Shown: positions 2,563 to 32,604 of the stretch, one piece after another
How positions within the stretch are numbered: position 1 is the stretch's first letter
Layout of the letters: each line of letters opens with the position of its first letter
DNA from: Candidatus Omnitrophota bacterium
GTDB lineage: Bacteria; Omnitrophota; Gorgyraeia; Zapsychrales; Fredricksoniimonadaceae
Assembly (NCBI GenBank): GCA_015228785.1
Contig: JADGCU010000014.1
Span: 1 to 39,603, forward strand
Length of the DNA stretch: 39,603 nt
Direction of reading: 5' to 3'
Translations under genes and position numbers: made by a program
The notes under the pieces: model-generated
Seen by the model: the letters and a program-made list of their open reading frames with translations, nothing else
What the model was told of the DNA's origin: nothing
Database searches by the model: none

Positions 2563-2563
2563 G

Positions 2564-4775: not shown

Positions 4776-4787
4776 GGACATTTGATG

Positions 4788-4816: not shown

Positions 4817-4838
4817 TGACGAATGATGATGTGTTCTC

Positions 4839-6183: not shown

Positions 6184-6202
6184 GTCTTTGATGTCAGATG
6201 CA

Positions 6203-6232: not shown

Positions 6233-6248
6233 AACTATAGGAGTTGCC

Positions 6249-13468: not shown

Positions 13469-13511
13469 TTAACATTCCCTTAATACTTTATTAACAATAG
13501 TGGGCTATTCT
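13469..13511 (+). promoter_or_regulatory. putative Pho-box promoter of the giant gene
   Basis: TTAACA (13469), TTAATA (13480) and TTAACA (13491) stand at exact 11-base spacing. Nine bases after the last box is TATTCT (13506-13511), a -10-like hexamer. The box form matches known PhoB/PhoP-family direct repeats (TTAACA-like in Bacillus PhoP, PyTTAAPy in cyanobacterial SphR). The porin promoter at 26154-26196 has the same number, phase and -10 distance. Confidence 0.65.
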
Positions 13512-13568: not shown

Positions 13569-16500
13569 ATGTTTGGATCGCGGCAACAGGGAAGTTTGCG
13601 TGACTTAAGACAGTGGACATGGTTTCGGGTCTTATGTTTGACGGTATTGGTTTCTTATTGCTGTGATTTCATTGGTATTGACTTTCTTCGGGTTCAAGAG
13701 GCGCGTGCGCAAAGTATGGTCATGGCGCCTCTTCCAGGGACTTTATTGTCCATTTCGTCGGCCACGGCTCTTCCTAGTCTTAAAGCCATATCCATTGACC
13801 CGGCCGATCCTCTTAAGATTAATTTTCTGGTTGATGGCGGGGATCAGGCGAAGGTCAATGAAGAAGAGTCCCGCCTTCTTATCAAATATTTCCTGACATT
13901 TTTGACAATTCCGGAACAAGATCTTTGGGTGAACCTGTCTCCTTCTGAGCCCGGTCGCATCATCAATCCGGATTTGGGACGAACGACCGTGGGCCGGGAT
14001 ATGCTTATGGAAGATTATCTTCTTAAGCAGCTGGCCGCTTCTATGACCTTCCCTGAGCGGGAGCCGGGCAAGACATTTTGGGAGCAGATTTACTCCAAGA
14101 TTAAGAAACAATATGGGGATGTTGATCTCCCCTTGAATACATTTAGCAAAGTATGGATCGTTCCGGAAAAAGCTGTTGTGTATGAACAAAAAGATGCGGC
14201 CTTTATATCGGAAAGCCGTCTAAAAGTTATGCTGGATGAAGATTATCTGACTATGAAGAAGTCAGCGCTAGTTGATAAATCTTTTGCGGGCAGTGTTGAT
14301 CAGGCCAGTGAATTATATTTGAAGATCGCCCGGGAAATTATTATCCCGGCCCTTGAGCGGGAGGTGAATGAAGGCCAGTATTTTGCCCCCTTGCGTCAAA
14401 TGGTCAATTCGTTGATCTTGGCGATCTGGTTTAAGCGGAAGCTTCAAGACCATGTTGTTAACCAGGTTTATACGAATCAAAAGAAAACATCCGGTATTCA
14501 GATAGAAGACAAGCAGATCAGTCAAAAGATCTATGAGCAGTATATGCTGGCCTTACAGAAAGGCGTCTACAATGTTATTCGTGAGGAAGAAGATCCCGAT
14601 CAGCAGGCTGTTGTTCCCCGTCATTATTTTTCAGGAGGAGTTGTATTGGAATCAGCCATGGCGGCGATCGAGTTTAAGCCAATGCCGTCTTTTAAGCCTG
14701 AACAGGCATCATTGATCAGACGTTTGGGGGATAAGCTTTCTCGTTTTACGATTTCTTTGCTTCCCAGAGGGATGTCTAGGCAAGCCCTCTTGAATCTTGT
14801 TCTTGCGGCTGGATTGTTGACCGGCGTTGGCTCCAAGGCCTTGGCGCAGACGATGCCTGCTCCGACTCCTCTTCCACAGGCTGCAGTCACTACGGTTAGT
14901 CCATCCAAGGCACCTCTTTCACCAATTTATGGTGCCCCTCAGAATATTCAGCTCAAAGCACCTCCGAGCATAGCGCCAGTGAAAGTCACATCCGCGCCAT
15001 CCGCTATTAAGGGAGGCCAGGTTATTTCAGCCGAAGCGGTTGTGGTCGAGGACATGGTTTTGATGCGCGCCCCCTCAGGTGGGGTTGTAAGACAATTTGA
15101 CCTCGGCAAGAAGGAGTATGCGAAGGATGAAAATATATATTTTATCGAGGATTCAAAGGTGGTTGAGAAGATTGTTGCCAAGAGCGCGCAATTGAAGATT
15201 AGGACAGATATGTTGACCAGTACGGACTGGGCGGCGGGAGCAACGGGGCCGGAGTTCAGTAAAACTATGATCGAAGCAGCCAATCTGGAAGTCGAGATTC
15301 AAGGACTGGAGGCGCAAAGGATTGTGGGGGTCGTTAAGGCGCCGTGCGATCTTTCTATTCCTGATAGAGAGGGTGTTCACGATGGCATGACAGTTGTCGC
15401 AGGACAGCGCCTTACGGATTATATCCCTAAGGATAGAGGCCATTTGCAGGTTTCCATACCTTTGGAGCAGACATATTTTGGTCGTATTCATAAGTTTCGG
15501 GTTGGTGATAAAGAGCTCGAGCCCACAGGCGCTGTCTTGCAATTGGATCCGACACATACTCAGTTGCTGGTCACTTTTTCGGTTTACGGTCCTGATGGGC
15601 TTCCGGATATTGGTAAGAAGCATGCTGTTGTGATAGAGATCATCCCTCCTCTTGAGGATAAGAACGGTCTGGATAAAGTTCATAGTGTTTCCAGTACATG
15701 GGTCGCTGTCGATCAGAACGCCTCTTCTTTGGAGATCCGGACGCCTTCTGTTGGCCCTGTTCAATTTAATGTCCAGCCGGGAGATAGGGTTCAGGTCGAT
15801 GATTGGATATTGACCCAGAAAGGTCCTGCCCTGGATGAGTTCGGTAAGACCATGTCAGAACTCCAAGAGGTTCAGAAGCAGCTAAAGAATGTTCAGTCTT
15901 CAGGTGGTCTGATGGGGGTATCTCCTGATGAGGTCCTTCATTTGCGGGACAGGGAAGCCGAACTGTCAGCCAGGCTTAAGACTTTGCAGGATGAAGCCGG
16001 ACGGTTACTTGTCAAGACTCCCGCTGATGGTATGGTTAAGGAGATCTCTTGGGAGCCTTCTTCATTTGACCAGGGGGCAGTGGCCGTGCGATTGCAGCGT
16101 TCGCAGTTTGTGATTGGCAATACGGATAATTCTATTTTGTTCTCCCGGGATCTGCAAATTAGCGAGGGCGATCCGGTTGTCCTGCGGACGCCTGCGGGAA
16201 TATACGGGGTGGGGGAGGTGATCAAGACAGATCCAGGGGTACAAAGTTCGAAATCGAATCTGGGTCCGGTACAGGCGGTTAAGATCAAGGTGTATGATCC
16301 TCATAATGCGTTTTATGCGGGTCTTCCGCTACAGGTGATTGTCCCGGATAGCAGTGAAAGAGCCCGTGTTGCCCAAGTCTTGGCCAAGGTCAAGGCAACG
16401 CGTTTGGAGTCCTCGCGTTCTGCGACGGCCATGAATCCGTTGGCTCACGTTACGATCCCTTCTTCTGTGGCCATGGGAGGATCGACGGTAGGCACTGTTG

Positions 16501-19500
16501 CCTCTAAGCAGATCGTTCCTTTGCCGATTCCTGATGTGTCTGGGGCACGATACACTAAAGCAGAGATAGTCGAGAAGGTAAGGGCCAATTCGCTAGGGTA
16601 TTTTGCTGCGCGGACGAGTTTGGCTCAGAGCCAAAGTCTGACAGGGAAGGCCCGTCAGGGGCAGGATCTGAGTATTGGCATTGATCCGAGCACTTCTTTG
16701 AGTGTCGATAGCGTTAATGTTGGTGCAAGTGGTGAGGTATCGGCGGGATTCCCAAATCCTTTTAAATTGGTTTTTGGTTTTGTTGAGAGTCTCTTTAGGA
16801 AAGGGGCGGATCATAAGGATCATGGTCCTGAAAAAAGGGCGGCGGTGATCAAGGCCATACAGGACGCTGCCCAGCACCACGTGGATGCCGAGAAGGACAG
16901 GCTCGAACAGGTGAGTTTGGAATACGCTGCCGTTATTGGTCAGGCCCAGATGAGACAGAGTCAGCTTAGGCCTTTTCTTCAACTTTTGCAAGAGCAGAAA
17001 AAAGCCCTTGAAGCCCGTCGAGAAGCCGGTCTGGCTCAGAGCAATGCTTTAACAGAACTTGATTCGCAGATCACGGCGAAGCGTCTGGAGATGCAATATT
17101 GGAAAAACCAGGAGCAGACTGCAACTCTTGCTCTGCATAGGATGATGGGGTCTGAATCCAAAGAGCCGATCGTACCGGAGTTTCCTTGGAACGGGACATT
17201 TCCAGGTACATCCGCCGCCGAAGAGGCCACTTTGAAAGGCAGGCTTGGTTCGAATGCTCAATTGCTGCAGGCTCAGGCGGCGAATCGTCTGATGGATATT
17301 TTGGCCGAGATCTATGGAAAGAATACTGTTTTTGCGAGACCGGACTTAAAGTGGATCCTTGATGTGGCGAGCATGCATTCTAATCTGACCTCGCCTATGT
17401 CGAAGGTCCCTTCGCCCCGGTCGTTTGTCAACCCAGGGGGCATGGGGGTCACTTTTCGGATGGATGATCCGAAAAGCGAGGTGGCCAAATTGGTCACAGC
17501 TGACGAAAGGGGATTTTCCTCTAACAATCTTGTCAATGTTAATCTGGAGCTTGAACAGAGACAGGCTACGGCTTCGGCGTGGAAACAGTCGTTGAGCGAA
17601 CGGATCCAACAGGCCGAGAAGGAATATTCCCGAGTCGTGGCCACGCAGGAGCAAATGGATGCTCAGCAGGCAGCGAGCAAGAATTATTCTCCTGGTCAGA
17701 TGGTGGCGGCCCATGCTGCTGTTGATCGGGCCGCGGCAGACCTCACTGATCTTGAGGCGCAGTATTTTAAGATGGAGGCCGCGTTGTGTGGCTTGGATGT
17801 GCTGAGATCTGATCAGACTTATGTGGGGGCAGCGGCGAATTCCGCGACGATTCGAAAGGCCCAGGCCGTGGTCGCCGCCTCTGTTTCCGGATTGAATACC
17901 GTTTCTGTAACAGCCAGCCAAGGGAAGGGACAAGGTTCCTCGGGGTTGACGGTTTCTTTTCCGACACCATCTTCCCCTCCGCGGGATTCCTTTGCGGTCG
18001 GAGATGTCTTGATTAGTGCGCCGGGGATTAGTCCCATAGAGCTGGGGACGATGATGACAGGGAAAGAGCCTTTCTCACAAAAACAATATGATGTCGCTGT
18101 AAGGGTTCTCACGCAGGATGCTAATGTTATGAATCGGGTGGAAATGTTGGATTTCTTTTTAAAAACACTTCAGAGCAATCACAAGGGCATTGATACTGTC
18201 GAGCAGATTATTCTGAATTCGCCTTGGGACGATGTCCGGCAAAGGCTTCTCCAGCACATGGTCAATCTGGACGGGTTTGATGCGCGGTTTCTGGTTTATA
18301 TCGCGGATCAGGCGATTGATCCTAAAGATCCCCAGAAGAAGAATCCAGTCCTTGGTGAATTGTGCCTTCATACATTTAACGATATTCTGGTCAATGACCC
18401 AAATGCCCTGAAGCAGTTGTCCGAATTGAATTACTCCCCTGAGACAGGCCCAGCCCACGCACGAATTTCAGTGGATACAGCACGCAGGTTTTTGTTGACG
18501 TTTTTATCCTGGGCGCCGGAGAATTCGCTGGGGAGGATACGCTTATTGCAGAGTGATTATTGGACAGTTGAGCAGCTGGCCCAGATCTATAAGACATTAA
18601 GATCAGGTAACCAGGGCGGGTCAGAAAGATTGAGCCAGCTCATTTACGATGAGATTTTAAGGCGCGAGGTGCTGGCTAATCTTGAAGAATTCTTTCATAA
18701 AGGGCCTTTTCGTCAACTGCCAATATATATTTCTTCTGATGATGTGTATGGTGCTTTTATGTCTGAAGAATTTAAGAAGGTGAATCAGCTGTTTCTCACA
18801 AGCTCGCCAGAATGGAGGGATATCGAAGGGCGTGTTCCCGAACAATTATATCAGAGGGGCAAGGCGGGTGCAGATACGCTTGTTGGCCCCACGGGGCCTT
18901 CTCTTCTGGGGCCAGGCCCCATGGTGTATGACGTCTCACCTGTATCGATGACAGATACATCGCTACTGGCTTATTACGGTAATCTTGATGATACGGCACG
19001 AAAAGCTCATATTACTGATTTGAAAAGACCGCCAAGCCTGCCTGAGCTTGCACGCATTCTAAAAGCTGATAGAAATTTGAGAGGCATGGCGCTGGACAAA
19101 TTAATGGAAACTCAGCAGGGGCGGATCCTGGTTTTGTCGGCTTATACAGAAGTTGATGAGGCTAAGGCAGGTAACGATGAAGCGAAAGCAGATGCCAGAG
19201 ATCTTTGTAATTTGGTGGAAGGCCGCGAGTGGAACGATCGTTTGCTGACAGATGTAAAGGACGTTAGCGATCCGGTTTCTACTGATATCGTACGCCGCGC
19301 CATGGAAAAGATGTCTCGGCGGACAGGCCAGACATGGCCTTCGAATTTTCGCGGGAGAACATATTCGTTTGACGAGCTGAAAACAGCTACCGATTTACAG
19401 CCAGGAGACAAGGATCTTCGGCTTCAAGCCTTGGCTGTGGAACAGGCGCTTGGACTTCTGCGCGAGGCGGGAAGAAATAGTCCACGTTTGTGGCTCGGAC

Positions 19501-22500
19501 AGGTTGTTTATAATCCTCAAGAATTGAATTTGATGCAGCAGGTGCAAAAGATAATTGATTCAAGTGGTGACCCTCGAGTATTGATTTCTTATCTGGATCA
19601 GCTTGATAAGGAAAATGATCCGACAACAAAAGTTCTTCGGAAGGATTTGACTTATTGGAGAAATCGAACGGCTAAGGCAATTGAGGACAATAATCAGGAC
19701 TTGCCCCGGGCTCCGTTTTTTACCTGGGCGTTCAGTAGCGCACTCGCTTTGATCATCGCAGGACTTTTTGGCAGAAAGCTTTTATGGAAGGCTCATATTA
19801 ATTCTTCCAGTACAAGAAGCCTTTTGGATAAATATGATATGGAAGTGATGCCAAAGTCAGATAATGAGGGAGGAACTCATGAATCTGCGATGGCCAATCA
19901 GAACGGGGAGAGTGGGAAAAAGAGATTTTTCTCGATGCTTTTTAATCGACGTGCGTCGAAAAAGGCAAAGCTTCTTTCCATTCCTAGTATCGAGATGCCT
20001 GGGAAAACCCTGCAACACCTCAAGATATGGGAGAGTGTTCTGCTCCGGTGGAAGAAGGATGGCATACAGGTTGACCCGAAAAGTGTTGTTATCGACCTTA
20101 ACAATATTATGAATAATGCATCTGAAATTCTTCGTGAAATACCTTATGATCCTGGACTGATGGGAAGGCCGCATGTGGGCGGGTCTATTGAAAATGAGCG
20201 CTATCACAGTGTTCTTATTAATTTTAACTCATTGGCCTTGAACACAATGAAAGTGCTGGAGGATTATCTGGAAAATAGGTCGGATCTTGACCCGGTTCAG
20301 AAGAAGGCTTTTTTACGAGATGTTGGCGACCTTATCAATATGGCTAAGTATAGCGCTAGATATACAAAAATTTTACGCTCTCGGGGGATCATTGACATGG
20401 TGATGGCGTACAAGTTCGCTAATAGTCACTTGTTTGAATGGTCTGGTATCTATCCTTTTATGCGCTTTTGTTCAGGATATGGTTTTCTATTAGGAGGATC
20501 CAGAAAAGGAATAAGAAATGAATTGCCACAATTATTAGAAAATTCGGAATCTTTTTTGCCGGGGCTTTACGGTAACGCTGACAACAAGAAAAAGATTATT
20601 AAAGAGAGTGAACAAACATTAGGCGAATCAATTCAGAACGCTGATACGTTGCTTTCTCCTATAGGGACCAAGGATGCCTATATGCTCAAGGTGCGCAGGC
20701 TTCGCAGTCGTTTATGGTTGTTTGTGCCCTTTCTGTGCAATATCGGATTGTTTGCTCTGGCTTTGACGGGTGTGTTTCCGTTGTTTGTAACACAGCTGAG
20801 CATTCTGGGATTGGTGTTCTTTATAGGAAAAATCATTACTTTTTGGCTACCGCATCTACGACTGATGCAGATGCCATGGAAGGTGATCTTTGATTTGGCT
20901 ATTAAAAAATTTGATTCTAGTTTATCTGAGAAATTGGGCATGCCGTCCGGAAGCACAATAGGAGGAGCCCAGGGTTCTGGGGAAAAGAATATTGTCCGTT
21001 TGGCGATAGAAGAGGGGGCTTTGGCGCTTAAGAAAGAGCTTGATCCGACTCGTAAAGCAAGTGTGGATATGATCATGGTTCTCCCCGAAGATCCCGGGGA
21101 TGAAGAAGGTGTGAGGGGTTTTGTGAAGGATTCCCAAGGTCAAGGGGAGCTTTTTCGTAAGGACACTCCTGTTGTTGTGGCGCCAGCGACTAGAAAGGGA
21201 AGTGCGAATGTTTATTTTGATGCTATTCAAGTTGTCCAGGACAAATTGAATGATGAGCAATTTTTAAGAGAGAATCCCCATTTGAGGGGGGTTCCCTGGC
21301 AGGATGTTAAAGTCCTGTTTGTTTTTCATGGTGCTAATCAAGGTCAGGACAAAAGCAGCTTGAAGTGGGCGGTGATCAATGGATATCGCGCGATGGGGGC
21401 CTCGAACGGACAGAAACAGGGTCAGGTCGGGACTGAGCCGGGGGGGCACACGGTCATTTATAGTCGTGATGTGTATTTCGGCCCCATGCTGAATTTCCCT
21501 GATAAAGATATTAACATATTAGGCGATTGGGTCGATCAAGAAGCATTGAAGAACTTGGGATTGATGATCATGGATTTTGCCAAGGATGGGATCACGGTGC
21601 AAGAGATCCTGGAGAAGTTGGATATAGCGGAGCGTCAAGAGAAGGAAAAGCAGAGAGGAGCGACGAACAATACATTGACGCGTCTGAAAAGAGATTATAG
21701 TTATGATTTGGGAAATAACTCTATAAGGCAGTATCCCGCCGCAACTGGCGTGATGAGATTTAGTCCCAAGACTGTCAGGATATTGGGAAGAGTCCATCAG
21801 GATTTGAAGGACAATAAAAGCTTGCGGCAAAAGTTAGGATATTTGCATTTGACAACGGATGTGCTTAATAATCTTATTAAACAGCCCGAGGATCTGGGGG
21901 ACGATCGCTATCTGGATACCCGGGTTGGTTTTTCTGATATAAAAGAGAATTATAAGATCACGAATCGTGATGATGCACGCGCTATCTTTAGGCCTTTGTA
22001 TGAGCTGTTTGCCAAGGCCAGAGAAGCCGAGGGGAATCACCTGACCATTAATTCCGTTCTTCCGCATCGTGGTGCAGGAGAGGTGATCCACGTTAAGCGG
22101 CCGAAAGACATGGAGAGGGTTATTGAACTATTAAGGGAAGGTGGCCTAGGGGACATCATCTCTTGGCGGCCAGCGCAAGAGCCATTGCCGCAAACGAGCG
22201 TCGTGTTGCAGCCATCACTTGCGGCGCAAGACGGATCAGGCAATCCTGCTCTTGGAGAAGGGTCAGCTTCGAAAGAAACACAGCCTCCCAGTACGGATAA
22301 GTCCATAGTGTTGTCTCAGGAACAAAAAGACCAGGAGACGATTCCGCAAAGAACGAAGGAGCCGAGCAAGACTGTTGTGGAGCCAATATTAAGGAGTGTT
22401 GAGGGAACAGCAGATGCCAGACAGTCCGTTAGCGAACCAAAATCTTTGGCAGAGGATACTGTCTTTGCTGTTGGCAAGCGCACATCGGTGCCGATTTCCC

Positions 22501-23558
22501 TGGCGACTATCCGTAAAGCCTGGTATCCGGTCTTGCTTTTTGCTCACGCATTCTCTAGTAACAAGGCTTCTGTCCCTGTTCAGCAGATTTTAAACAAATT
22601 TCTGACGGGAAAAGGGCTTGATGGACAGGATCTTCAAGGATCTCTTGACCAGTTTTTTAAGGACTATGAGGTCGCGGAAGAGGACCAGGTTCCCAACTGG
22701 CAGGATTTCGTGTCTGGCCTGACAATTGACGGACTCAGGGATCTGGTGGATACCGTGACGGATGAGATAAGGAGGAGAAAAGATTCTCCTGACCAGCAAT
22801 GGCTGCCGATCCTGGAATATTTGAGAACAAGGATCCAGGATGTCGCGCCCGCGGTCTCGGTTCCTGCAGGGTTGTCGCAGAAGGCCTCGCATTCTTCCTC
22901 GGTTGATACACAGCTGCCACAAGAATATCTTCGGTATACAAAGCAGGTTGGGAGATTAACTCAAGAGGCAGAAAGATTGCGCGGTCCGAAAGGGTCGAAG
23001 ATGTCGTGGGTAAACAGGAAGCTCAGGGCGTCGGTCAATGGAGAGATCTTTGCGCTGACTGGAGAACTTGCCAGGAAAGTGATAGCAGATGAGCAGTTAT
23101 CCCAAAGCGATCCGGTTCTCGCCGGAGCCACACAAAAATATCTTAAGTATAAGCATGAGGTGGATGCCTTGAAAGAAAGAATTGCGGCCTTGGGTGGTGA
23201 AGATGGAGCAACGCTTTCTGAAAGCAAAAAGAAGCAGATCAGAAGTTTATACGGCCAGATCTCGGCGATCAAGAATTTTAGAATGACTCCGTTGCGAACA
23301 CAGATCTTGCCCCGCTTGGAAACGGTAATTCAAGCGGCTGAGCCTGCTATGGAAAAAGATCTCAAGAACGGCGGGCTGGACCTTTCTGGTATGAAGAATA
23401 ATATTGAATTTAGAGAAGGCGACTCTCTTTTGATCAAGAATTTACAGCCTTTCGTATTGGCACATCCGCTGCGATTTCTTAGCCTGTTGCGTGGTTTTGA
23501 TTTTAATATTATTGCTTTCCAGCCTATTGAAGATCCGGCCAAATTCTTTGCTTTTTAA
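13569..23558 (+). CDS. giant multidomain envelope protein (3329 residues) with HlyD-like and TolC-like segments
   Basis: ATG 13569 has AAAGGGG upstream. Residues 1-50 look like a signal peptide or anchor (hydrophobic 20-38, then EARAQS). Residues 50-400 form an N-terminal domain I associate with giant Omnitrophota proteins (SLKAISIDPADPLKINFLVD, FNTFSKVWIVPEKA-like stretch). Residues 402-427 are a second, internal signal-like segment (LLNLVLAAGLLTGVGSKALA), then a Pro-rich linker. About 490-960 resembles HlyD-type adaptor domains: APSGGVVRQFDLGKKEYAKD, RTPSVGPVQFNVQPGDRVQV, coiled coil 757-810, KTPADGMVKEISW. About 990-1415 resembles outer-membrane efflux (TolC) repeats, notably EARREAGLAQSNALTELDSQ. 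About 1480-2040 is helical and unassigned. Membrane segments lie near 2050-2070 and 2383-2430. A folded domain follows (2460-2860), then a Ser/Thr/Pro/Gln linker (2866-2975) and a helical end. Function unknown; an export or cell-surface role is inference. Confidence 0.85.
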   Translation: MFGSRQQGSLRDLRQWTWFRVLCLTVLVSYCCDFIGIDFLRVQEARAQSMVMAPLPGTLLSISSATALPSLKAISIDPADPLKINFLVDGGDQAKVNEEESRLLIKYFLTFLTIPEQDLWVNLSPSEPGRIINPDLGRTTVGRDMLMEDYLLKQLAASMTFPEREPGKTFWEQIYSKIKKQYGDVDLPLNTFSKVWIVPEKAVVYEQKDAAFISESRLKVMLDEDYLTMKKSALVDKSFAGSVDQASELYLKIAREIIIPALEREVNEGQYFAPLRQMVNSLILAIWFKRKLQDHVVNQVYTNQKKTSGIQIEDKQISQKIYEQYMLALQKGVYNVIREEEDPDQQAVVPRHYFSGGVVLESAMAAIEFKPMPSFKPEQASLIRRLGDKLSRFTISLLPRGMSRQALLNLVLAAGLLTGVGSKALAQTMPAPTPLPQAAVTTVSPSKAPLSPIYGAPQNIQLKAPPSIAPVKVTSAPSAIKGGQVISAEAVVVEDMVLMRAPSGGVVRQFDLGKKEYAKDENIYFIEDSKVVEKIVAKSAQLKIRTDMLTSTDWAAGATGPEFSKTMIEAANLEVEIQGLEAQRIVGVVKAPCDLSIPDREGVHDGMTVVAGQRLTDYIPKDRGHLQVSIPLEQTYFGRIHKFRVGDKELEPTGAVLQLDPTHTQLLVTFSVYGPDGLPDIGKKHAVVIEIIPPLEDKNGLDKVHSVSSTWVAVDQNASSLEIRTPSVGPVQFNVQPGDRVQVDDWILTQKGPALDEFGKTMSELQEVQKQLKNVQSSGGLMGVSPDEVLHLRDREAELSARLKTLQDEAGRLLVKTPADGMVKEISWEPSSFDQGAVAVRLQRSQFVIGNTDNSILFSRDLQISEGDPVVLRTPAGIYGVGEVIKTDPGVQSSKSNLGPVQAVKIKVYDPHNAFYAGLPLQVIVPDSSERARVAQVLAKVKATRLESSRSATAMNPLAHVTIPSSVAMGGSTVGTVASKQIVPLPIPDVSGARYTKAEIVEKVRANSLGYFAARTSLAQSQSLTGKARQGQDLSIGIDPSTSLSVDSVNVGASGEVSAGFPNPFKLVFGFVESLFRKGADHKDHGPEKRAAVIKAIQDAAQHHVDAEKDRLEQVSLEYAAVIGQAQMRQSQLRPFLQLLQEQKKALEARREAGLAQSNALTELDSQITAKRLEMQYWKNQEQTATLALHRMMGSESKEPIVPEFPWNGTFPGTSAAEEATLKGRLGSNAQLLQAQAANRLMDILAEIYGKNTVFARPDLKWILDVASMHSNLTSPMSKVPSPRSFVNPGGMGVTFRMDDPKSEVAKLVTADERGFSSNNLVNVNLELEQRQATASAWKQSLSERIQQAEKEYSRVVATQEQMDAQQAASKNYSPGQMVAAHAAVDRAAADLTDLEAQYFKMEAALCGLDVLRSDQTYVGAAANSATIRKAQAVVAASVSGLNTVSVTASQGKGQGSSGLTVSFPTPSSPPRDSFAVGDVLISAPGISPIELGTMMTGKEPFSQKQYDVAVRVLTQDANVMNRVEMLDFFLKTLQSNHKGIDTVEQIILNSPWDDVRQRLLQHMVNLDGFDARFLVYIADQAIDPKDPQKKNPVLGELCLHTFNDILVNDPNALKQLSELNYSPETGPAHARISVDTARRFLLTFLSWAPENSLGRIRLLQSDYWTVEQLAQIYKTLRSGNQGGSERLSQLIYDEILRREVLANLEEFFHKGPFRQLPIYISSDDVYGAFMSEEFKKVNQLFLTSSPEWRDIEGRVPEQLYQRGKAGADTLVGPTGPSLLGPGPMVYDVSPVSMTDTSLLAYYGNLDDTARKAHITDLKRPPSLPELARILKADRNLRGMALDKLMETQQGRILVLSAYTEVDEAKAGNDEAKADARDLCNLVEGREWNDRLLTDVKDVSDPVSTDIVRRAMEKMSRRTGQTWPSNFRGRTYSFDELKTATDLQPGDKDLRLQALAVEQALGLLREAGRNSPRLWLGQVVYNPQELNLMQQVQKIIDSSGDPRVLISYLDQLDKENDPTTKVLRKDLTYWRNRTAKAIEDNNQDLPRAPFFTWAFSSALALIIAGLFGRKLLWKAHINSSSTRSLLDKYDMEVMPKSDNEGGTHESAMANQNGESGKKRFFSMLFNRRASKKAKLLSIPSIEMPGKTLQHLKIWESVLLRWKKDGIQVDPKSVVIDLNNIMNNASEILREIPYDPGLMGRPHVGGSIENERYHSVLINFNSLALNTMKVLEDYLENRSDLDPVQKKAFLRDVGDLINMAKYSARYTKILRSRGIIDMVMAYKFANSHLFEWSGIYPFMRFCSGYGFLLGGSRKGIRNELPQLLENSESFLPGLYGNADNKKKIIKESEQTLGESIQNADTLLSPIGTKDAYMLKVRRLRSRLWLFVPFLCNIGLFALALTGVFPLFVTQLSILGLVFFIGKIITFWLPHLRLMQMPWKVIFDLAIKKFDSSLSEKLGMPSGSTIGGAQGSGEKNIVRLAIEEGALALKKELDPTRKASVDMIMVLPEDPGDEEGVRGFVKDSQGQGELFRKDTPVVVAPATRKGSANVYFDAIQVVQDKLNDEQFLRENPHLRGVPWQDVKVLFVFHGANQGQDKSSLKWAVINGYRAMGASNGQKQGQVGTEPGGHTVIYSRDVYFGPMLNFPDKDINILGDWVDQEALKNLGLMIMDFAKDGITVQEILEKLDIAERQEKEKQRGATNNTLTRLKRDYSYDLGNNSIRQYPAATGVMRFSPKTVRILGRVHQDLKDNKSLRQKLGYLHLTTDVLNNLIKQPEDLGDDRYLDTRVGFSDIKENYKITNRDDARAIFRPLYELFAKAREAEGNHLTINSVLPHRGAGEVIHVKRPKDMERVIELLREGGLGDIISWRPAQEPLPQTSVVLQPSLAAQDGSGNPALGEGSASKETQPPSTDKSIVLSQEQKDQETIPQRTKEPSKTVVEPILRSVEGTADARQSVSEPKSLAEDTVFAVGKRTSVPISLATIRKAWYPVLLFAHAFSSNKASVPVQQILNKFLTGKGLDGQDLQGSLDQFFKDYEVAEEDQVPNWQDFVSGLTIDGLRDLVDTVTDEIRRRKDSPDQQWLPILEYLRTRIQDVAPAVSVPAGLSQKASHSSSVDTQLPQEYLRYTKQVGRLTQEAERLRGPKGSKMSWVNRKLRASVNGEIFALTGELARKVIADEQLSQSDPVLAGATQKYLKYKHEVDALKERIAALGGEDGATLSESKKKQIRSLYGQISAIKNFRMTPLRTQILPRLETVIQAAEPAMEKDLKNGGLDLSGMKNNIEFREGDSLLIKNLQPFVLAHPLRFLSLLRGFDFNIIAFQPIEDPAKFFAF

Positions 23559-23672: not shown

Positions 23673-23876
23673 ATGGCTGCGTATGAGGATCAAGATAAGA
23701 AGATTGATAATTTTCTGAGTTATCGGGCGAAAGAATTCGGGTTCGCGGGGTCGCAGGCTCTCAAATGGCGGGAGCGCGCTCTTGTGGAGCATGCCCGTTC
23801 TGCGTTGAGAGACTATATTCATAAAATTGACATGATAGAAAGGGATGGAAGGGAAGATGATTACAGAAACAATTGA
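23673..23876 (+). CDS. small uncharacterised protein (67 residues)
   Basis: ATG 23673 follows the strong Shine-Dalgarno GGGAGG; an in-frame upstream start at 23640 is less likely because it would place the Shine-Dalgarno inside the gene. The product is very polar and probably helical (YEDQDKKIDNFLSYRAKEFG, then ALKWRERALVEHARSALRDY). No known domain is recognised. It overlaps the next gene by 20 bases, so the two are translationally coupled, and it is first in a three-gene group of which the other two are paralogues. Confidence 0.7.
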   Translation: MAAYEDQDKKIDNFLSYRAKEFGFAGSQALKWRERALVEHARSALRDYIHKIDMIERDGREDDYRNN

Positions 23877-24116: not shown

Positions 24117-24383
24117 ATGAAAAAAGCAGAAACTGATCTTTTGAAAGATCCTTTGGTAAGGGAAGAGATAGGGCGGTACCAATGGATCGAGAGCGAGAAG
24201 GCTGGTTTTGATATTGGGTGGCAGAGAGCCTCAGAGGAATGGGTATCGCGCTATGCGATTGCCTGGTGTCGGGCACATCCGATCCGCAAGCGTCCTTTTC
24301 GCAGGGAAGATGTGAGGCTCAAGAAAGGAAGTTGCTCTGAATCACGGCGGACTTCCAATTTTCTCGAGTACAGTTTTGTTTAA
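24117..24383 (+). CDS. small protein of the WIESEKAG-DIGW family (paralogue 3)
   Basis: An 88-residue product beginning MKKAETDLLKDPLVREEIGR, then YQWIESEKAGFDIGWQRASE, EW and AWCRAHP. Start ATG 24117 has GGGGGCG upstream and matches the start of the minus-strand copy at 12303. It has a longer basic C-terminal tail (RKRPFRREDVRLKK) than the other two copies, which might bind nucleic acid or membrane; that is speculation. Last gene of the group, followed by a non-coding stretch of about 80 bases. Confidence 0.75.
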   Translation: MKKAETDLLKDPLVREEIGRYQWIESEKAGFDIGWQRASEEWVSRYAIAWCRAHPIRKRPFRREDVRLKKGSCSESRRTSNFLEYSFV

Positions 24384-25039: not shown

Positions 25040-25225
25040 GATTCCTTTATGATTTTTGATGAAGTATAGACTATTTCTCTTGATTTTGCCAATCAGCAAA
25101 AGAACTGCTCGCGCTCGCAAGATTCTTTTGTTACCATAAGTCCAGATTTTTTGTGGGTACGGCAATCCCGCATGTTTTTGCTTTTATTGGGGAAAAGCGG
25201 GGTAAGAAAAAGATGGGGAGGCTCT

Positions 25226-26083
25226 ATGGAGTATATGAAAAAGACGCTTTTTGTTCTTTTCTTATTATTATTCTCACCGATAGTGTGCGCAGAAGATATA
25301 AATATTAAGGGATCTGATACGATCGTCCGGCTGACCCAGCGCCTTGCTGAGGTTTACATGAAGGATCATCCTCAAGTGAAGATAGCAGTATCAGGTGGCG
25401 GATCAGGGGTGGGGATTGCGGCCATCATCAATCAAACGGCGGACATTGCGGATGCTTCCCGTGAGATGAAGGCCAAGGAACTTGAGGGGGCGGCCCGCAA
25501 GAATGTGTCGCCCAAGAAGGTCGTGATTGCGGCGGATGCCATTGCGATCATTGTCAATGAGCGTAATCCTGTGCGGACCTTGACAACGGATGAATTGGGT
25601 GCCGTTTTTCGTGGTGAAATCACAAATTGGAAGAAATTGGGTGGCCTGGATATGCCAGTCACGCTTTATGGTCGGCAGTCGACATCCGGGACTTATGTGT
25701 TCTTAAGGGATCTTGTCGTCAAGGCAGACTATTCTCCCAGAATGGCAGGACTTCAAGGAAATGCGGGGATCATGGAGGCGGTCAAAGCGGACCAATCTGG
25801 GATCGGGTTTGTTGGGGTGGCCTTTATAAGGAAGGCAGAAGGCGTGAGTCCTTTGATGATCGCGGCATCCAAAGACCATCCTTATTTAAGTCCGTTGGAT
25901 AAAGATGTAGTGGAGTCGGGCGCATACCCTCTGACTCGTCCTTTGATCCAGTATATTGATGCCCATTCGAGGCCTGAGGTGCATGGCTTTATTGCCTTTG
26001 AATTGTCTTCCGACGGGCAGAAAGTGATCGAGGAAGAAGGATTTTTTCAGATTCCCTTATCCTGGAAGACAAGATTGCATTAA
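25226..26083 (+). CDS. pstS: phosphate ABC transporter substrate-binding protein PstS (copy 1)
   Basis: Periplasmic phosphate-binding protein of 285 residues in the short PBP-like family. Start ATG 25226 has GGGGAGG just upstream; the signal peptide is MEYMKKTLFVLFLLLFSPIV with a likely cut after VCA. Phosphate-contact segments are visible: IKGSDTIVRLTQ, VSGGGSGVGIAA, ADIADASREM and YGRQSTSGTYVF. It is separated from the Pst permease genes by the porin and a second pstS. Closest relative in the window is pstS2. It may serve as an alternative receptor of different affinity for the same permease. Confidence 0.9.
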   Translation: MEYMKKTLFVLFLLLFSPIVCAEDINIKGSDTIVRLTQRLAEVYMKDHPQVKIAVSGGGSGVGIAAIINQTADIADASREMKAKELEGAARKNVSPKKVVIAADAIAIIVNERNPVRTLTTDELGAVFRGEITNWKKLGGLDMPVTLYGRQSTSGTYVFLRDLVVKADYSPRMAGLQGNAGIMEAVKADQSGIGFVGVAFIRKAEGVSPLMIAASKDHPYLSPLDKDVVESGAYPLTRPLIQYIDAHSRPEVHGFIAFELSSDGQKVIEEEGFFQIPLSWKTRLH

Positions 26084-26153: not shown

Positions 26154-26196
26154 TTCATATCCGCTTAATATTTCCTTAACATGCATCCATTATATT
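26154..26196 (+). promoter_or_regulatory. putative Pho-box promoter of the porin gene
   Basis: TTCATA (26154), TTAATA (26165) and TTAACA (26176) at exact 11-base spacing, then 9 bases and TATATT (26191-26196). This is the same geometry as at 13469-13511. A PhoB gene is encoded 5.7 kb downstream, so the regulator is at hand. Confidence 0.7.
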
Positions 26197-26250: not shown

Positions 26251-27537
26251 ATGTTGAAGAAGATCATGTGGATGTTCACAGCGGCATGCCTGGTGGTGTG
26301 TCCGGGTCTTGCCTCCGCGGGGGAGACGGACCTTCTGGTTCAGAAACTCGTCGAGAAAGGGATCCTGACGCCGTATGAGGCGCAGATCCTGAGAGACGAT
26401 ATTCGTCAGGATGTCAACAAGCAGATCGCAGAGAAAAAGAATGATGCGCTTCCTTCATGGGTTCAGTCGATCAAGATGAAGGGGGATGCCCGCCTTCGTT
26501 ATCAGAGTACATCGAAAGAAGGAACTGGAAACACTGTGATCAGGAATCGCGGACGTGTCCGGTATCGTCTGGGGATTGAGGGCAAACCCAACGACAAGTT
26601 TACAGTCGGTGCAGGTCTGGCGAGCGGTGGGCAGGATCCCCGTTCGACGAATCATACCTTGGAAGATTCACATGAGAAGAGTTACGCGATGCTGGATTAC
26701 GCTTTTGCAGAATACAAGCCGACTTCTTGGCTCACGATGATTGGTGGTAGATACAATGCCGCTAGCAGAGGGTTTTTATGGTACACAACAGACATGATGT
26801 GGGATTCAGATATCAATCAGGGTGGGCTTTCAGCCCGTTTGGACATTCCTAAAGTTCTTTTTGGGGATATGTTCATCACCGGTGGTTATTGGGCCCTTGA
26901 TGAAAGCTCTACGAGCCAGTCTGATGCGGGGATGTATTATGCTCAAATGGGTATGAAATTCCAGCCGGCCGAAGGGTGGAACATGAAAGTGGCGGGAACA
27001 GGCTATGGCACGCATTTCGGGGGAGCGTATACTAGTTTGCCATGGAGAACTGATGTGGAAGGAACGGCTCCCACTTCTCCGGACGGGAACTCGATGACGG
27101 GCAGTACTTACAAGTACAAGTTCACTCCAGTCTATGCGGGTTCAGCGGAAATAGTGTACAGCTGGCCTGAGGAAACAAGTTTCCCGATCAAGATGGCCGG
27201 AATTTTTGGTGATTATGTGTCCAACCCTGACCCTTCTTCGCACAATACGGGCTGGGCGTCAGGCGTGAAGTTTGGGCATAAGAAGGTTGGCGAGGCCAGA
27301 GGCGATTGGCAGTTTAAATACCAGTATGTCTCTCTTGGTGCTGATGCCTGGCTGGATGCTTTTCCGGATTCTGATCGTTATAGCGGGGCGACCAATTCAA
27401 AGGGCAATGAGTTCATTCTGGCTATCGGGTTAGCTAAGAATGTTACCTTGGACCTTGATTATTATATGACCGACCGTATTGCGGGCGGGAGCAAGGAAGA
27501 GCGTTTGTTCCAGGCTGACATCAACTTCAAGTTCTAA
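26251..27537 (+). CDS. outer-membrane porin, probably phosphate-regulated
   Basis: A 428-residue beta-barrel protein. Start ATG 26251 has AAAGGGAAA upstream; the GTG at 26212 is rejected. The signal peptide is MLKKIMWMFTAACLVVCPGL with a cut after ASA. Residues about 25-75 form an N-terminal helical segment (LVQKLVEKGILTPYEAQIL, then coiled coil), as in the putative-porin families whose N-terminal part holds a trimer or binds the wall. The barrel begins at about IKMKGDARLRYQ and ends in ERLFQADINFKF, the C-terminal aromatic signature for barrel insertion. Its place between two pstS genes and its Pho-box promoter suggest an anion pore like PhoE or OprP. Confidence 0.85.
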   Translation: MLKKIMWMFTAACLVVCPGLASAGETDLLVQKLVEKGILTPYEAQILRDDIRQDVNKQIAEKKNDALPSWVQSIKMKGDARLRYQSTSKEGTGNTVIRNRGRVRYRLGIEGKPNDKFTVGAGLASGGQDPRSTNHTLEDSHEKSYAMLDYAFAEYKPTSWLTMIGGRYNAASRGFLWYTTDMMWDSDINQGGLSARLDIPKVLFGDMFITGGYWALDESSTSQSDAGMYYAQMGMKFQPAEGWNMKVAGTGYGTHFGGAYTSLPWRTDVEGTAPTSPDGNSMTGSTYKYKFTPVYAGSAEIVYSWPEETSFPIKMAGIFGDYVSNPDPSSHNTGWASGVKFGHKKVGEARGDWQFKYQYVSLGADAWLDAFPDSDRYSGATNSKGNEFILAIGLAKNVTLDLDYYMTDRIAGGSKEERLFQADINFKF

Positions 27538-27579: not shown

Positions 27580-27641
27580 GCGGAATATTTAAAATTGAAA
27601 TATTAAAAATAATATAAATTTGAGTGATAAATGGAGGTGTT

Positions 27642-28514
27642 ATGAAAATGATGTCAAAAATAGCCTTGGCGGTGACAGGCTTGGTGTTCTGCGCCAGCGC
27701 TGTATCTGCTGAAATGATTCAGATCAAAGGGTCGGATACCATTGTGAATTTGGTCCAAAAGCTTGCGGAAGTTTATATGCAGCAGAATCCTGAAGCCAAG
27801 ATTTCGGTCACAGGTGGCGGTTCTGGAACAGGCATCGCGGGCATGATCAACAAGAAGTGCGATATTGGTAATGCTTCGCGTGCGATCAGTGCCAAGGAGA
27901 TTGAGCTGGCTTCTGCAGCCGGGCTCAATCCTTCCCGCGTTGTTATCGCGATCGACGGATTGAGTGTTATAGTTAATGATGGCAATGCGGTCACAAAGTT
28001 GACCGTTGAACAGATCGGTGCGATCTTCCGCGGTAAGATCACCAACTGGTCGGAAGTGGGCGGTTCCAATATGCCGATCACTCTTTACGGTCGTCAGTCG
28101 AACTCTGGAACTTATGGCTTTTTTCGCGAGATGGTCCTCAAAGGTGAATATTCTCCCAAGATGCGCAGTATGAACGGAAATGCCCAGATCGTTGAGTCAG
28201 TCAAGGCTGATCCTACGGGGATCGGTTATGTCGGCGTGGGTTATGTGCGGGACGCTGCTGGACTGACAGTGCTTGAGGTCGCTTTTAAAGACGGCATGCC
28301 TTATGCGAGTCCTTTGGATGAGAAGGCTGTTGAGTCAGGAGATTATCCCATTGCCCGTCCTTTGTATCAGTATGTTGGCGGGACAGTGAGCGGTGCGGTG
28401 AAGGAATTCATGCAATTTGAGACAAGTCCGGAAGGTCAGAAGATCGTTCAAACGGAAGGGTTCTTCCCGATCACGGATGAATACCGCAATTTGAATGCCC
28501 GTGTTGGACTGTAA
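27642..28514 (+). CDS. pstS: phosphate ABC transporter substrate-binding protein PstS (copy 2)
   Basis: A 290-residue product; ATG 27642 has TGGAGG upstream and is preferred over GTG 27624. The signal peptide MKMMSKIALAVTGLVFCASA is cut after VSA. Binding segments are IKGSDTIVNLVQ, VTGGGSGTGIAG, CDIGNASRAI and YGRQSNSGTYGF. It is the copy directly upstream of pstC-pstA-pstB and so the likely main receptor of the first Pst importer. A strong terminator follows, so it is probably made in excess over the permease, as is usual for binding proteins. Confidence 0.93.
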   Translation: MKMMSKIALAVTGLVFCASAVSAEMIQIKGSDTIVNLVQKLAEVYMQQNPEAKISVTGGGSGTGIAGMINKKCDIGNASRAISAKEIELASAAGLNPSRVVIAIDGLSVIVNDGNAVTKLTVEQIGAIFRGKITNWSEVGGSNMPITLYGRQSNSGTYGFFREMVLKGEYSPKMRSMNGNAQIVESVKADPTGIGYVGVGYVRDAAGLTVLEVAFKDGMPYASPLDEKAVESGDYPIARPLYQYVGGTVSGAVKEFMQFETSPEGQKIVQTEGFFPITDEYRNLNARVGL

Positions 28515-28534
28515 GGTTACCATGTTCTCTCCCT

Positions 28535-28570
28535 AAAAAGGCAGGCTTGATCATGCAGCCTGCCTTTTTT
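28535..28570 (+). terminator. rho-independent terminator after pstS2
   Basis: AAAAAGGCAGGCT pairs perfectly with AGCCTGCCTTTTTT around an 8- to 9-base loop and ends in TTTTTT. It separates the pstS2 transcript from pstC. Confidence 0.93.
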
Positions 28571-28585
28571 GTAGGCTAGAGGTGG

Positions 28586-28614
28586 TTGCAGGATATCAGG
28601 TTTCTGGTTATAAT
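28586..28614 (+). promoter_or_regulatory. promoter of the pstCAB-phoU-phoBR operon
   Basis: A perfect TATAAT (28609-28614) stands 17 bases after TTGCAG (28586-28591), 24 bases before the pstC start and just after the pstS2 terminator. No phased Pho boxes are visible here, so this operon may be expressed at a basal level. Confidence 0.55.
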
Positions 28615-28637
28615 GCGTTGCGTCAAGAGATCATCTT

Positions 28638-29522
28638 ATGAATAAACGCCGGTTAAAAGAGAAACTGATCGAGTGGCTGTTCTTTGTGAACGGCATGATC
28701 GCTGTTCTTGTTTTGGTTGGAATTTTCATCCTCCTCGTTCGCAACGCCTTCCCTGGGTTCAAGGAAGTTTCTTTCTGGGAATTCTTAACCACAAGTCGAT
28801 GGAACCCCGATGCCTATGATAAGGAGACCTATGGTTTTCTGGCCATGCTGGCATCAACCGGTATGACGACCATAGGATCTTTATTGATCGCGGTCCCCCT
28901 TGGTGTGGGGACAGCGGCTTATCTTTCTGATGTGGCGAGCCACAGGGTGCGCGAGATTGCCAAGCCCCTTATTGAGATCCTCGCTGGGATACCATCTGTT
29001 GTGATCGGTTTCTTAGGGATCGTTTTGGTGGGGCCGGTACTTGCCAAGCTGACCGGAACGTATAATGGACTTAATGCCATCAATGGATCCATTCTTCTTG
29101 CGGTGATGGCGCTTCCGACGATCGTAAGCCTTTCGGAAGACGCCTTAAACAGTGTCCCTCGTTCTTATGAAGAGGCATCTCTGGCACTCGGCGCCAACAA
29201 ATGGCAGACAGTTATCAAGGTCAAGATCCCGGCAGCCGCTTCCGGTATTATTGCGGCTTGTATGCTGGGCATGGGGCGGGCGATCGGGGAAACGATGACT
29301 GTTCTTATGGCAACGGGAAATGCACCTGACTTTCCGCAAAACTTGTTGTCCTCGGTCAAGACCATGACGGCCACGATCGCGATTGAATTAGGGGAAACAG
29401 CGTATTTCTCGACGCATTTTTACATGCTTTTTACGGTGGGGCTGGTTCTTTTTATCATCACTTTCTTTATAAATCTGATCTCGGATATTATTTTTCATAA
29501 ACATATGAAGATGCTTAAATGA
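28638..29522 (+). CDS. pstC: phosphate ABC transporter permease PstC (copy 1)
   Basis: Inner-membrane permease subunit of 294 residues with about six membrane segments; the first is MIAVLVLVGIFILLVRNAF. The family motifs are intact: LIEILAGIPSVVIGFLGIVL, and the cytoplasmic coupling segment SYEEASLALGANKWQTVIKV that docks on the ATPase. GMGRAIGETMTVLMATGN follows in the last part. It overlaps pstA by four bases (ATGA). With PstA it forms the phosphate channel. Confidence 0.95.
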   Translation: MNKRRLKEKLIEWLFFVNGMIAVLVLVGIFILLVRNAFPGFKEVSFWEFLTTSRWNPDAYDKETYGFLAMLASTGMTTIGSLLIAVPLGVGTAAYLSDVASHRVREIAKPLIEILAGIPSVVIGFLGIVLVGPVLAKLTGTYNGLNAINGSILLAVMALPTIVSLSEDALNSVPRSYEEASLALGANKWQTVIKVKIPAAASGIIAACMLGMGRAIGETMTVLMATGNAPDFPQNLLSSVKTMTATIAIELGETAYFSTHFYMLFTVGLVLFIITFFINLISDIIFHKHMKMLK

Positions 29523-30373
29523 ACGAGAAAAGCATAAAACAGGTTTTGGGGTTCTGGGTGCTTCGCCTGTGTATGGGCTTTGTGGCCTTGATCCTCGTCG
29601 TTGTTTTTTACGATATCATTACCAAGGGAGCGCCCGCTGTCACATGGACATTCTTGACCCAGTCGCCGCGTGAAGGGATGACGGAGGGCGGTATCTTTCC
29701 GGCGATCGTTGGAACATTTCTGGTTACTATGATCACGGCGATCCTGGCGGTTCCGTTGGGGATGGGCAGTGCGATCTATCTTAATGAATACGCTCCGGAC
29801 AATTTTATGACGCGGTTTATTCGCATGTCGATCAGAAACCTTTCGGGTGTTCCGTCGATCGTTTACGGTCTTTTCGGGGTGGCTCTTTTTGTTGAGATGT
29901 GTCATTTTGGGACATCGATCATTTCGGCAGGGTGTACTTTGGGGCTTATGACGCTTCCCTTGACGATCACGGCCAGTGAAGAGGCGCTCAAGGCTGTGCC
30001 CCGTTCTTATCGCGAGGGGGCGTTGGCGCTGGGCGCTACGAAGTGGCAGTCGATTCGGACAAATGTTCTTCCTTATGCGATCCCCGGCATGCTCACAGGG
30101 GCGATCCTGGGGCTTTCCCGAGCGGCGGGAGAGACAGCGCCTATTTTGTTTACTGGGGCTGCGTTCTTTTTGCCGGATCTTCCCAACTCACTTTTGAGTC
30201 AGTTCATGGCGCTTCCGTATCATCTCTACATTATGTCGACACAGCATCACAATATTACGCTCGTCCGGCCGATCGCCTACGGAACAGCGCTGGTTCTGTT
30301 GATGCTGATTTTCTTAGTGAACATTTCTGCGATTATTTTGCGGTATCGTCTCAGACAAATGAAGAAGGAATGA
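29519..30373 (+). CDS. pstA: phosphate ABC transporter permease PstA (copy 1)
   Basis: Second permease subunit, 284 residues, about six membrane segments. It shows SGVPSIVYGLFGVALFV, SYREGALALGATKWQSIRTN (ATPase-coupling EAA-type loop) and LSRAAGETAPILFTGAAFF, the usual PstA end motif. Coupled to pstC by an ATGA overlap and followed 3 bases later by pstB. Confidence 0.95.
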   Translation: MNEKSIKQVLGFWVLRLCMGFVALILVVVFYDIITKGAPAVTWTFLTQSPREGMTEGGIFPAIVGTFLVTMITAILAVPLGMGSAIYLNEYAPDNFMTRFIRMSIRNLSGVPSIVYGLFGVALFVEMCHFGTSIISAGCTLGLMTLPLTITASEEALKAVPRSYREGALALGATKWQSIRTNVLPYAIPGMLTGAILGLSRAAGETAPILFTGAAFFLPDLPNSLLSQFMALPYHLYIMSTQHHNITLVRPIAYGTALVLLMLIFLVNISAIILRYRLRQMKKE

Positions 30374-30376
30374 CAC

Positions 30377-31141
30377 ATGCCTAACATGAAGCCCAAGATC
30401 AAGATAAAGGATTTTAATTTTTACTACGGGGCATCTCAGGTGCTGAAGCGTATTTCTATGGATATTCAGCCTACGCATGTGACAGCTATTATTGGTCCTT
30501 CGGGTTGTGGGAAATCGACATTGTTACGGTGTTTGAACCGTATGAATGATCTCATTCCATCTTCCCGTCCGGAGGGGAAGATCGAGATTGACGGCCAGGA
30601 TATCAATGCGCCTTCTATTGATGTCGTGGATCTCCGAAAGCGCGTTGGGATGGTTTTTCAGAAACCTAATCCGTTCCCGAAATCAATATTTGACAATGTG
30701 GCTTATGGACTTCGCGTGAACGGCATCAAGGATAATCGTCTTATTGAAAAGAGAGTCGAGGCGAGTTTGAAAGGGAGCGCACTTTGGGAAGAGGCCAAAG
30801 ATCGTCTAAAAGAAAACGCCTTGAATCTCTCCGGTGGGCAGCAACAGCGTTTGTGCGTGGCGCGCGCCCTTGCGATCGAGCCAGAGGTGCTGTTGATGGA
30901 TGAACCTGCCTCGGCCCTGGATCCCATTGCGACCGCCAAGATTGAGGAATTGATCGTTGAGCTGAAGAAGAAATATACCATTGTCATCGTGACACATAAT
31001 ATGCAGCAGGCAGCGCGTATCTCCGACAGCACGGCCTTCCTGATGCAGGGGGATTTGGTTGAGTACGGGAAAACATCGGATATTTTTACGAAACCGAAAC
31101 AGAAGATGACAGAAGAATATATTACGGGAAGGTTTGGATAA
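30377..31141 (+). CDS. pstB: phosphate ABC transporter ATPase PstB (copy 1, canonical)
   Basis: A 254-residue ATPase with every catalytic motif intact: Walker [11 protein letters not shown]-loop VFQKPNPFP, signature LSGGQQQR, Walker B LLMDEP, D-loop SALDP and switch His in [10 protein letters not shown]. It would act as a symmetric homodimer on PstC-PstA. Its ending EEYITGRFG is the PstB hallmark. It serves as an internal reference for the two altered ATPases at 37428-38929. Confidence 0.97.
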
Positions 31142-31219: not shown

Positions 31220-31909
31220 ATGAAACGCCATTTCGACGATGATTTAAAGAATTTCACTTCTAACATTCTCAAGATGGGGAACCTGACGGAGCGGGCTATT
31301 AGTGCCGCTATCGAGGCCCTGCAGACGCAGGATGCCCAGAAGGCCGAGAAAGCGATCAAGGGGGATACCAAGATCGATTCTCTCGAGCTTATTATTGAGG
31401 AGCAGGGGATCGATCTTCTGGCTTTGTATCAGCCGATGGCGGTCGATCTGAGGACCGTGACAACGGGCCTTAAGATCAATGCCGAGCTCGAGCGGATTGC
31501 GGATCTTGCGGTCAATATCTGCCAGCGGGTGATCGAGATCGTGGAACTGCCGATCTTAAAACCACTGGTTGATATTCCAAGATTGGCGGATCTTTCCAAA
31601 TTGATGACGAGAGATGCTATTGACGCTTTTGTCAATAAAGATGAGGCGCTGGCAAAGAAGGTCATTCTGATGGATATGGAGGCTGATCGCCTGAAAGATT
31701 GTACGCAGGATGAATTGATCAATGATTTTATTGTGAAGGACGGGACAACGGCGCCGCGTGCTATTCCGCTTATTCTGGTCGTGCGTGATCTGGAGCGGAT
31801 CTGTGATCATGCCAGTTATATCGCCGAGGATGTTGTTTTTATGGTCAATGCCCAGGTGATTAAACATCACCGGGATGAGCTTTTGAAAGAGCTCGAGAAA
31901 GGCGTCTGA
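31220..31909 (+). CDS. phoU: phosphate signalling protein PhoU (copy 1)
   Basis: A 229-residue all-helical protein with two PhoU repeats. Metal- and partner-contact motifs are visible: AELERIADLAVNICQR in the first repeat and RDLERICDHASYIAEDVVFM in the second. PhoU passes the state of the Pst transporter to the sensor kinase PhoR and limits phosphate uptake. Start ATG 31220 has GGAGAG upstream. It overlaps phoB by one base (TGATG). Confidence 0.95.
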   Translation: MKRHFDDDLKNFTSNILKMGNLTERAISAAIEALQTQDAQKAEKAIKGDTKIDSLELIIEEQGIDLLALYQPMAVDLRTVTTGLKINAELERIADLAVNICQRVIEIVELPILKPLVDIPRLADLSKLMTRDAIDAFVNKDEALAKKVILMDMEADRLKDCTQDELINDFIVKDGTTAPRAIPLILVVRDLERICDHASYIAEDVVFMVNAQVIKHHRDELLKELEKGV

Positions 31910-32604
31910 TGTCTGCCCGTGTTCTTGTTGTTGAAGATGATGTCAGCATCAATGAATTGATCTGCTATAACCTTAAGAAAGAAGGCTTTGATGTCCATTC
32001 TGTCATGAGGGGCGATGGGGTGATGGTTGCTATTGCGAAATTTGATCCGGAATTGATCGTTCTTGACTTGATGCTCCCTGGGATAGACGGGCTTGAGCTA
32101 TGCCGGAAGATCAAGCAGGGTTCAGGTACAAAACATATTTCGGTCATCATGGTAACGGCCAAGGGCTTGGAAGCAGATATCATTGCGGGTCTTCAACTGG
32201 GGGCGGATGATTACATACCGAAACCTTTTAGCCCTAAAGTTCTTTTAGCGCGCATTAGAGCGGTTTTAAGACGTTCGGGTAAGCCGGGTGCGGTGGAATT
32301 GGATCGGCGAGAGTTCCGGAATCTTGTGATGGATCTTCCCAAGCGTATCGTTAGAGTAGATGGAGAGGGCATCCCTCTGACGACTCGTGAGTTTGATATT
32401 TTGGAATTTCTGTCTCGTTCACCAGGGCGGGTCTTTACGCGAGATCAGCTTCTTGATAATGTTTGGAAAGAAGGCCGATTCATTGTGGATCGCGCTGTTG
32501 ATGTCCATATTCGGGGTGTTCGCAAGAAGCTGGGAAAAGCCGAAGACTTGGTTGAGACCATCCGCGGCATCGGGTATCGGTTTAAAGACATTGAGGACCT
32601 ATGA
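31909..32604 (+). CDS. phoB: phosphate-regulon response regulator PhoB
   Basis: A 231-residue OmpR/PhoB-type regulator. The receiver domain has the acidic pocket VVEDD, the phospho-acceptor Asp in LIVLDLMLPGIDG (about residue 54), and the conserved Lys in ADDYIPKPF. The C-terminal winged helix includes LTTREFDILEFLSRSPGRVF, RAVDVHIRGVRKKLG and IRGIGYRF. It should bind the 11-base-spaced boxes seen at 13469-13496 and 26154-26181. Coupled on both sides, to phoU by one base and to phoR by ATGA. Confidence 0.93.
   Translation: MSARVLVVEDDVSINELICYNLKKEGFDVHSVMRGDGVMVAIAKFDPELIVLDLMLPGIDGLELCRKIKQGSGTKHISVIMVTAKGLEADIIAGLQLGADDYIPKPFSPKVLLARIRAVLRRSGKPGAVELDRREFRNLVMDLPKRIVRVDGEGIPLTTREFDILEFLSRSPGRVFTRDQLLDNVWKEGRFIVDRAVDVHIRGVRKKLGKAEDLVETIRGIGYRFKDIEDL

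Follow-up and report, generated by a model that had tools for sequence, protein, structure and literature searches.

A conserved Pho-type promoter precedes a giant envelope-protein gene in Omnitrophota

What switches on a 10-kb gene for a single envelope protein in a Candidatus Omnitrophota bacterium, and why does the DNA before it read like the promoter of a porin in the same neighbourhood? The window, that is, the whole stretch of 39,603 nucleotides analysed here, holds both genes. The original prediction had described three boxes in 11-base phase, a 9-base gap and a -10-like hexamer before each of them, and all of these letters and coordinates are correct. A scan of the window adds a third site, arranged in the same way, which that prediction had overlooked. 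The promoters and the giant gene are arranged as follows.

13469..13496, + strand: Pho boxes before the giant gene, three in 11-bp phase, TTAACA/TTAATA/TTAACA (starts 13469, 13480, 13491)
13506..13511, + strand: -10 element of the giant promoter, TATTCT, 9 nt past the last box
13569..23558, + strand: giant gene, 3329 aa
23607..23649, + strand: third Pho-type promoter, TTAATC-TTTATC-TTCATA, 9 nt, GATACT; precedes the small ORFs
26154..26181, + strand: three Pho boxes of the porin, TTCATA/TTAATA/TTAACA (starts 26154, 26165, 26176)
26191..26196, + strand: -10 element of the porin promoter, TATATT, 9 nt past the last box

None of the three promoters has a sigma-70 -35 hexamer 16-19 nt from its -10 element, and at the giant and porin promoters the best match reaches at most 2/6. 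A plain -35/-10 promoter is thereby ruled out, and the missing -35 at these two promoters is what is expected where an activator substitutes for that element. PhoB-activated promoters of E. coli keep about the same distance (~9 nt) between the last repeat and the -10 element. Pho boxes are 11-nt direct repeats to which PhoB is bound head to tail (PMC4415409, PMC2648988). At the giant promoter, phosphorylated PhoB, supplied by the phoB-phoR pair 18 kb downstream, would bind head to tail along the three 11-bp repeats, replace the missing -35 and bring RNA polymerase to the -10 element at 9 nt; the mechanism would be the same as at the porin-pst-phoU-phoBR promoter. The giant promoter also contains a 16-nt inverted repeat (88%; 13493-13548; DNA fold z -5.1), which overlaps the -10 element and the start region. 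The repeat occurs in this genome only and not in the orthologues, which rules out a conserved hairpin in the 5' region of the giant, and it is perhaps a second operator.

The original prediction had placed a phoB gene in the window about 18 kb from the giant boxes. The gene is indeed there; what had been missed is that it lies inside the porin-pst cluster, whose members are all encoded on the same strand.

25151..26083, + strand: PstS-like phosphate-binding protein 1 (PF12849, E 2e-34); precedes the porin
26251..27537, + strand: porin (Porin_5; PF16930, E 1e-43), heading the cluster
27624..31141, + strand: pstS2, pstC, pstA, pstB
31220..31909, + strand: phoU (PF01895)
31909..32604, + strand: phoB, response regulator with a winged-helix DNA-binding domain (PF00072 + PF00486)
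32601..33974, + strand: phoR, sensor kinase (PF00512, PF02518)

The best NCBIfam model for PhoB is TIGR02154 PhoB, at 238 bits and under the equivalog cut-off of 296. Directly after phoBR, a second set of genes (34839-39601) encodes a PstS-like protein, two permeases, two ABC ATPases and PhoU; in the window scan, this second pst system shows no Pho site of its own above threshold.

Porin orthologues are found in 44 of 55 relatives, and their promoters provide a yardstick for the giant site. A 43-column matrix was built from the porin/pst promoters of the 28 relatives with upstream DNA, with the own genome excluded. The same boxes lie upstream of porin/pst genes in 25 of the 28, and these 25 contributed a site. 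The matrix was seeded with the pattern of the original finding, and both the porin set and the giant set are independent of the window. Under this porin-derived matrix, the giant site at 13469 scores 27.1 bits and the own porin site at 26154 scores 30.9 bits. When the phase is left free, 11 bp is best in 26 of 29 porin regions and in 15 of 17 giant regions; when the position of the -10 element is left free, 9 nt is best in 13 of the 17 giant regions, which include one giant-like gene from another family (L126).

We therefore read 13469-13511 as a probable PhoB-dependent (Pho-box) promoter, at a probability of roughly 0.86; scarcity of phosphate would then induce the giant alongside the genes for high-affinity phosphate uptake, and the giant would be a core member of the Pho regulon. 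The site is common to the pst promoters, and phoB or phoR stands beside the giant or in line with it; from these two observations and general knowledge of the Pho regulon, we infer that PhoB binds these boxes in response to phosphate starvation and activates transcription. The boxes could instead be bound by another regulator of the OmpR/PhoB family, such as an envelope-stress regulator, so that the shared layout would not mean phosphate control. OmpR-family regulators do recognise similar direct repeats, and the PhoB encoded here is also similar in sequence to MtrA, RegX3 and BaeR. This alternative is nevertheless improbable, given that the boxes precede the most conserved member of the Pho regulon, pst (PMC4415409), in so many relatives, and that many genomes encode phoB or phoR beside the giant or immediately behind it.

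PhoB control of the giant also accords with the way in which the gene is placed elsewhere. The giant adjoins pst and/or phoBR in ten relatives, in several different orders. In one of them (G022), a gap of about 20 bp separates the giant from phoB, which is encoded downstream on the same strand; in G016, G012, G005 and G018, too, phoB or phoR comes after the giant in the same orientation. Because of this downstream position, the giant's Pho promoter may drive phoBR too in relatives with the giant-phoBR order.

The upstream regions of 12 giant genes, none of them used in the matrix, score a median of 21.7 bits under the porin-derived matrix, all above shuffles (p 0.005-0.01). Column-permuted matrices give a median of at most 2.7, as against 21.8 observed. 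For 18 genes of other genomes that have only the N-terminal module in common with the giant, the median is -2.0 bits (Mann-Whitney p=6e-6 against the giants); two N-module genes from other families score 18 bits (G052, G042). The original prediction would have been in difficulty if orthologues of the giant had lacked the boxes. With further orthologues added, 15 of 16 giants, the one in the window among them, have a site above 13 bits, and these include giants that lie on another contig than the porin. The sole exception, in G014, is a full giant orthologue with a weak site of 12.3 bits. Proximal giant sites are also weak, at about 15 bits, in G022 and G024; in the latter, the best matrix match is 469 nt upstream and the proximal site scores 15.0 bits. 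The reciprocal matrix, built from the relatives' giants alone, ranks the sites at 26154, 13469 and 23607 first in the window (35.7, 32.4 and 24.4 bits), and the next match scores 12.0. A conserved Pho-type promoter before the giant orthologues is thus established by computation.

The same comparison bears on whether the giant promoter might be a passive copy of the porin promoter, made by local duplication and kept without selection. The two loci share a nearly identical layout at a distance of 12.7 kb, as such a copy would, but the site persists in many genera with different flanks and gene orders. Strong giant sites, at 26.2, 29.4 and 25.9 bits, are also kept in G025, G031 and G028, where the porin is on another contig, so that linkage alone does not explain the boxes. 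The site is also absent from the giant's paralogues: all 20 in the own genome score at most 7.3 bits, save for a T-rich stretch that reaches 16.3 without containing proper boxes. Passive duplication is accordingly a very improbable origin for the giant's Pho boxes.

The boxes had also been expected to be scarcer than ordinary AT-rich DNA would supply, and this is borne out both by the paralogues and by neighbouring genes. Among 67 other genes in the fetched neighbourhoods, none exceeds 13 bits, in comparison with 9 of 11 porin entries; the 67 are 70 entries less three giants (L109, L118, L119) that had first been binned as 'other'. With up to three mismatches, TTMAYAN5TTAAYAN5TTAACA has 3 matches in the window, where dinucleotide shuffles lead one to expect 0.10, and its only perfect window matches are the giant and porin sites. 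The own assembly (2.02 Mb, 123 contigs, 82% complete) was scanned throughout by patterns. With up to one mismatch, the triple-box pattern finds only the giant and porin sites, and the reversed-pattern control finds 0. A looser 43-base pattern of three boxes, 9 nt and a loose -10 matches the genome perfectly at three positions, every one of them in the window (giant, small ORFs, porin); its one-mismatch matches are about as numerous as those of the reversed control, so nothing is claimed from them.

Across 32 genomes of the family, the strict 43-base pattern gives 19 matches, versus 2 for the reversed control. Fourteen of these precede a porin (nine), pstS (one) or a giant gene (four). Another, G020:C29, precedes an unassigned ORF and, beyond it, a PstS-like gene; the sequence covered after G021:C56 contains no ORF, and three (G007:C51, G026:C26, G026:C219) have no recognisable pho gene after them. 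A chance origin in AT-rich repeats, which boxes so short and AT-rich might invite, is refuted by this genome-wide rarity together with the shuffles, the reversed controls and the conservation across species.

The third Pho-type promoter of the window is followed by three small open reading frames.

23673..23876, + strand: small ORF 1, 67 aa
23857..24057, + strand: small ORF 2, 66 aa; RYRWIESEK family, with weak DUF4032 similarity under the cut-off
24117..24383, + strand: small ORF 3, 88 aa; same family as small ORF 2, with homologues next to giants in L108, L109 and L126

Small ORFs 2 and 3 have the motif RY(R/Q)WIESEK...IGW in common. Small-ORF homologues with a Pho-like site of their own adjoin giants in L108 (12598) and L109 (15660). 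At L126, in genome G052 of another family, a different giant (1019-6587, 1839 aa) has the N- and C-modules and a weak PG_binding_1 match; its Pho-type site scores 18.5 bits, and a small-ORF-3 homologue comes after the gene. In the relative G013, a porin-like match (G013:C14:71999-72238) is overlapped by an open frame of 24,086 aa, an extreme giant ORF.

The giant protein itself has no Pfam or NCBIfam match. Its parts, in residues, are as follows.

about 21-48: signal/transmembrane segment
about 60-360: N-module
407-425: transmembrane segment
about 480-1410: adaptor-like and TolC-like region
about 1510-2040: helical region
2050-2072: transmembrane segment
2160-2840: conserved region
3265-3329: C-module

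The N-terminal module (about 300 aa; DNA 13569-14657) is matched 27 times in the own genome and as many as 49 times in relatives. Paralogues pair it with a recurring C-terminal module (GGIDL ... F.GF.F.I..F.P; DNA 23361-23558). Paralogues with the N-module and the GGIDL C-module form a large family of Omnitrophota envelope proteins with no Pfam entry, and its members may have a system for sorting or anchoring in common.

The middle of the giant gives an HlyD-type profile match (E 4.5e-6 to 4l8j) and no Pfam match. Foldseek relates its AlphaFold model, which is of moderate quality (mean pLDDT 62, pTM 0.37), to MexA/AcrA (E about 2e-8 to MexA) and to TolC/OprM/VceC (E about 1e-8), at about 12% identity. 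The TolC-type matches have a TMt of 0.5-0.6, with short strands in the model and no sequence match. The limits of the adaptor and TolC-like parts (about 474-944 and 989-1409) come from the secondary structure of the model. These matches suggest an adaptor fused to an outer-membrane-factor-like part. The matches to both fold types fall in one stretch of the giant. Unlike in MexA/AcrA adaptors and TolC/OprM factors, the two parts are apparently fused in a single chain, which has further modules at its N- and C-termini; in the cluster, no separate export pump was recognised. Region 2160-2840 has no PDB match by sequence or fold.

Giant orthologues occur in Candidatus Omnitrophica, Omnitrophota and Elulimicrobium assemblies. 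Sixteen of 55 genomes have the adaptor region, and all of these belong to one family; the count is to be read with caution as the region is divergent. About half of the family's genomes have no adaptor-region match, which indicates that the giant is not universal even where pst has boxes. In G012, a shorter giant without the middle keeps the N-module, the C-region and the Pho site, so the Pho link is not confined to the adaptor/TolC-like part. On the modelled folds, the giant could be a membrane-anchored trans-envelope protein, with its adaptor and TolC-like middle serving the phosphate-starved envelope as conduit or scaffold; we hold this possibility tentatively, at somewhat less than even odds. 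A more specific and rather doubtful extension is a phosphate-starvation regulon narrowed in Omnitrophota to essentially two kinds of target: the porin-pst-phoBR genes for phosphate uptake, and a single giant envelope protein in which adaptor and TolC-like parts are fused into one chain. That protein would form a trans-envelope conduit or surface structure for gaining phosphorus, possibly from other cells or macromolecules.

The kind of promoter described here is already known; what is new is its target, a giant envelope gene, and its lineage. It resembles the PhoB-dependent phoA/pstS type of E. coli in its 11-bp repeats, in lacking a -35 and in having boxes common to the pst operon and phoBR. 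It differs in its target and in its consensus, TT(A/C)A(C/T)A, which is closer to GTTCACC than to CTGTCAT. A large cell-surface protein under the influence of phosphate through the Pho regulon has a precedent in the LapA adhesin of Pseudomonas fluorescens (PMC3032545). Control of LapA, however, is indirect, through Pho-controlled RapA and c-di-GMP, and low phosphate removes the adhesin, whereas in the present case the boxes stand in the promoter of the giant itself.

The giant ORFs described for Omnitrophota (PMC10066038) come from the same phylum and are likewise very large and poorly annotated, with transmembrane segments. They exceed 20 kb, in comparison with 10 kb for this gene, and are tied to predation or adhesion; that paper's passages on giant ORFs name no phosphate link. 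In the open-licence PMC literature, we found neither a paper linking Pho boxes to Omnitrophota nor a description of a Pho regulon in the phylum; the papers that mention both Omnitroph and PhoB concern other subjects, judging by title and abstract.

The original prediction is correct in substance, and the giant is probably part of the cell's response to phosphate shortage. A conserved phosphate switch, along with an operon-like position with phoBR in some relatives, ties one of the giant proteins of Omnitrophota to a condition that can be tested. A Pho-box matrix is now supplied for Omnitrophota. Together, these results suggest that phosphate scarcity alters the architecture of the envelope in these cells.
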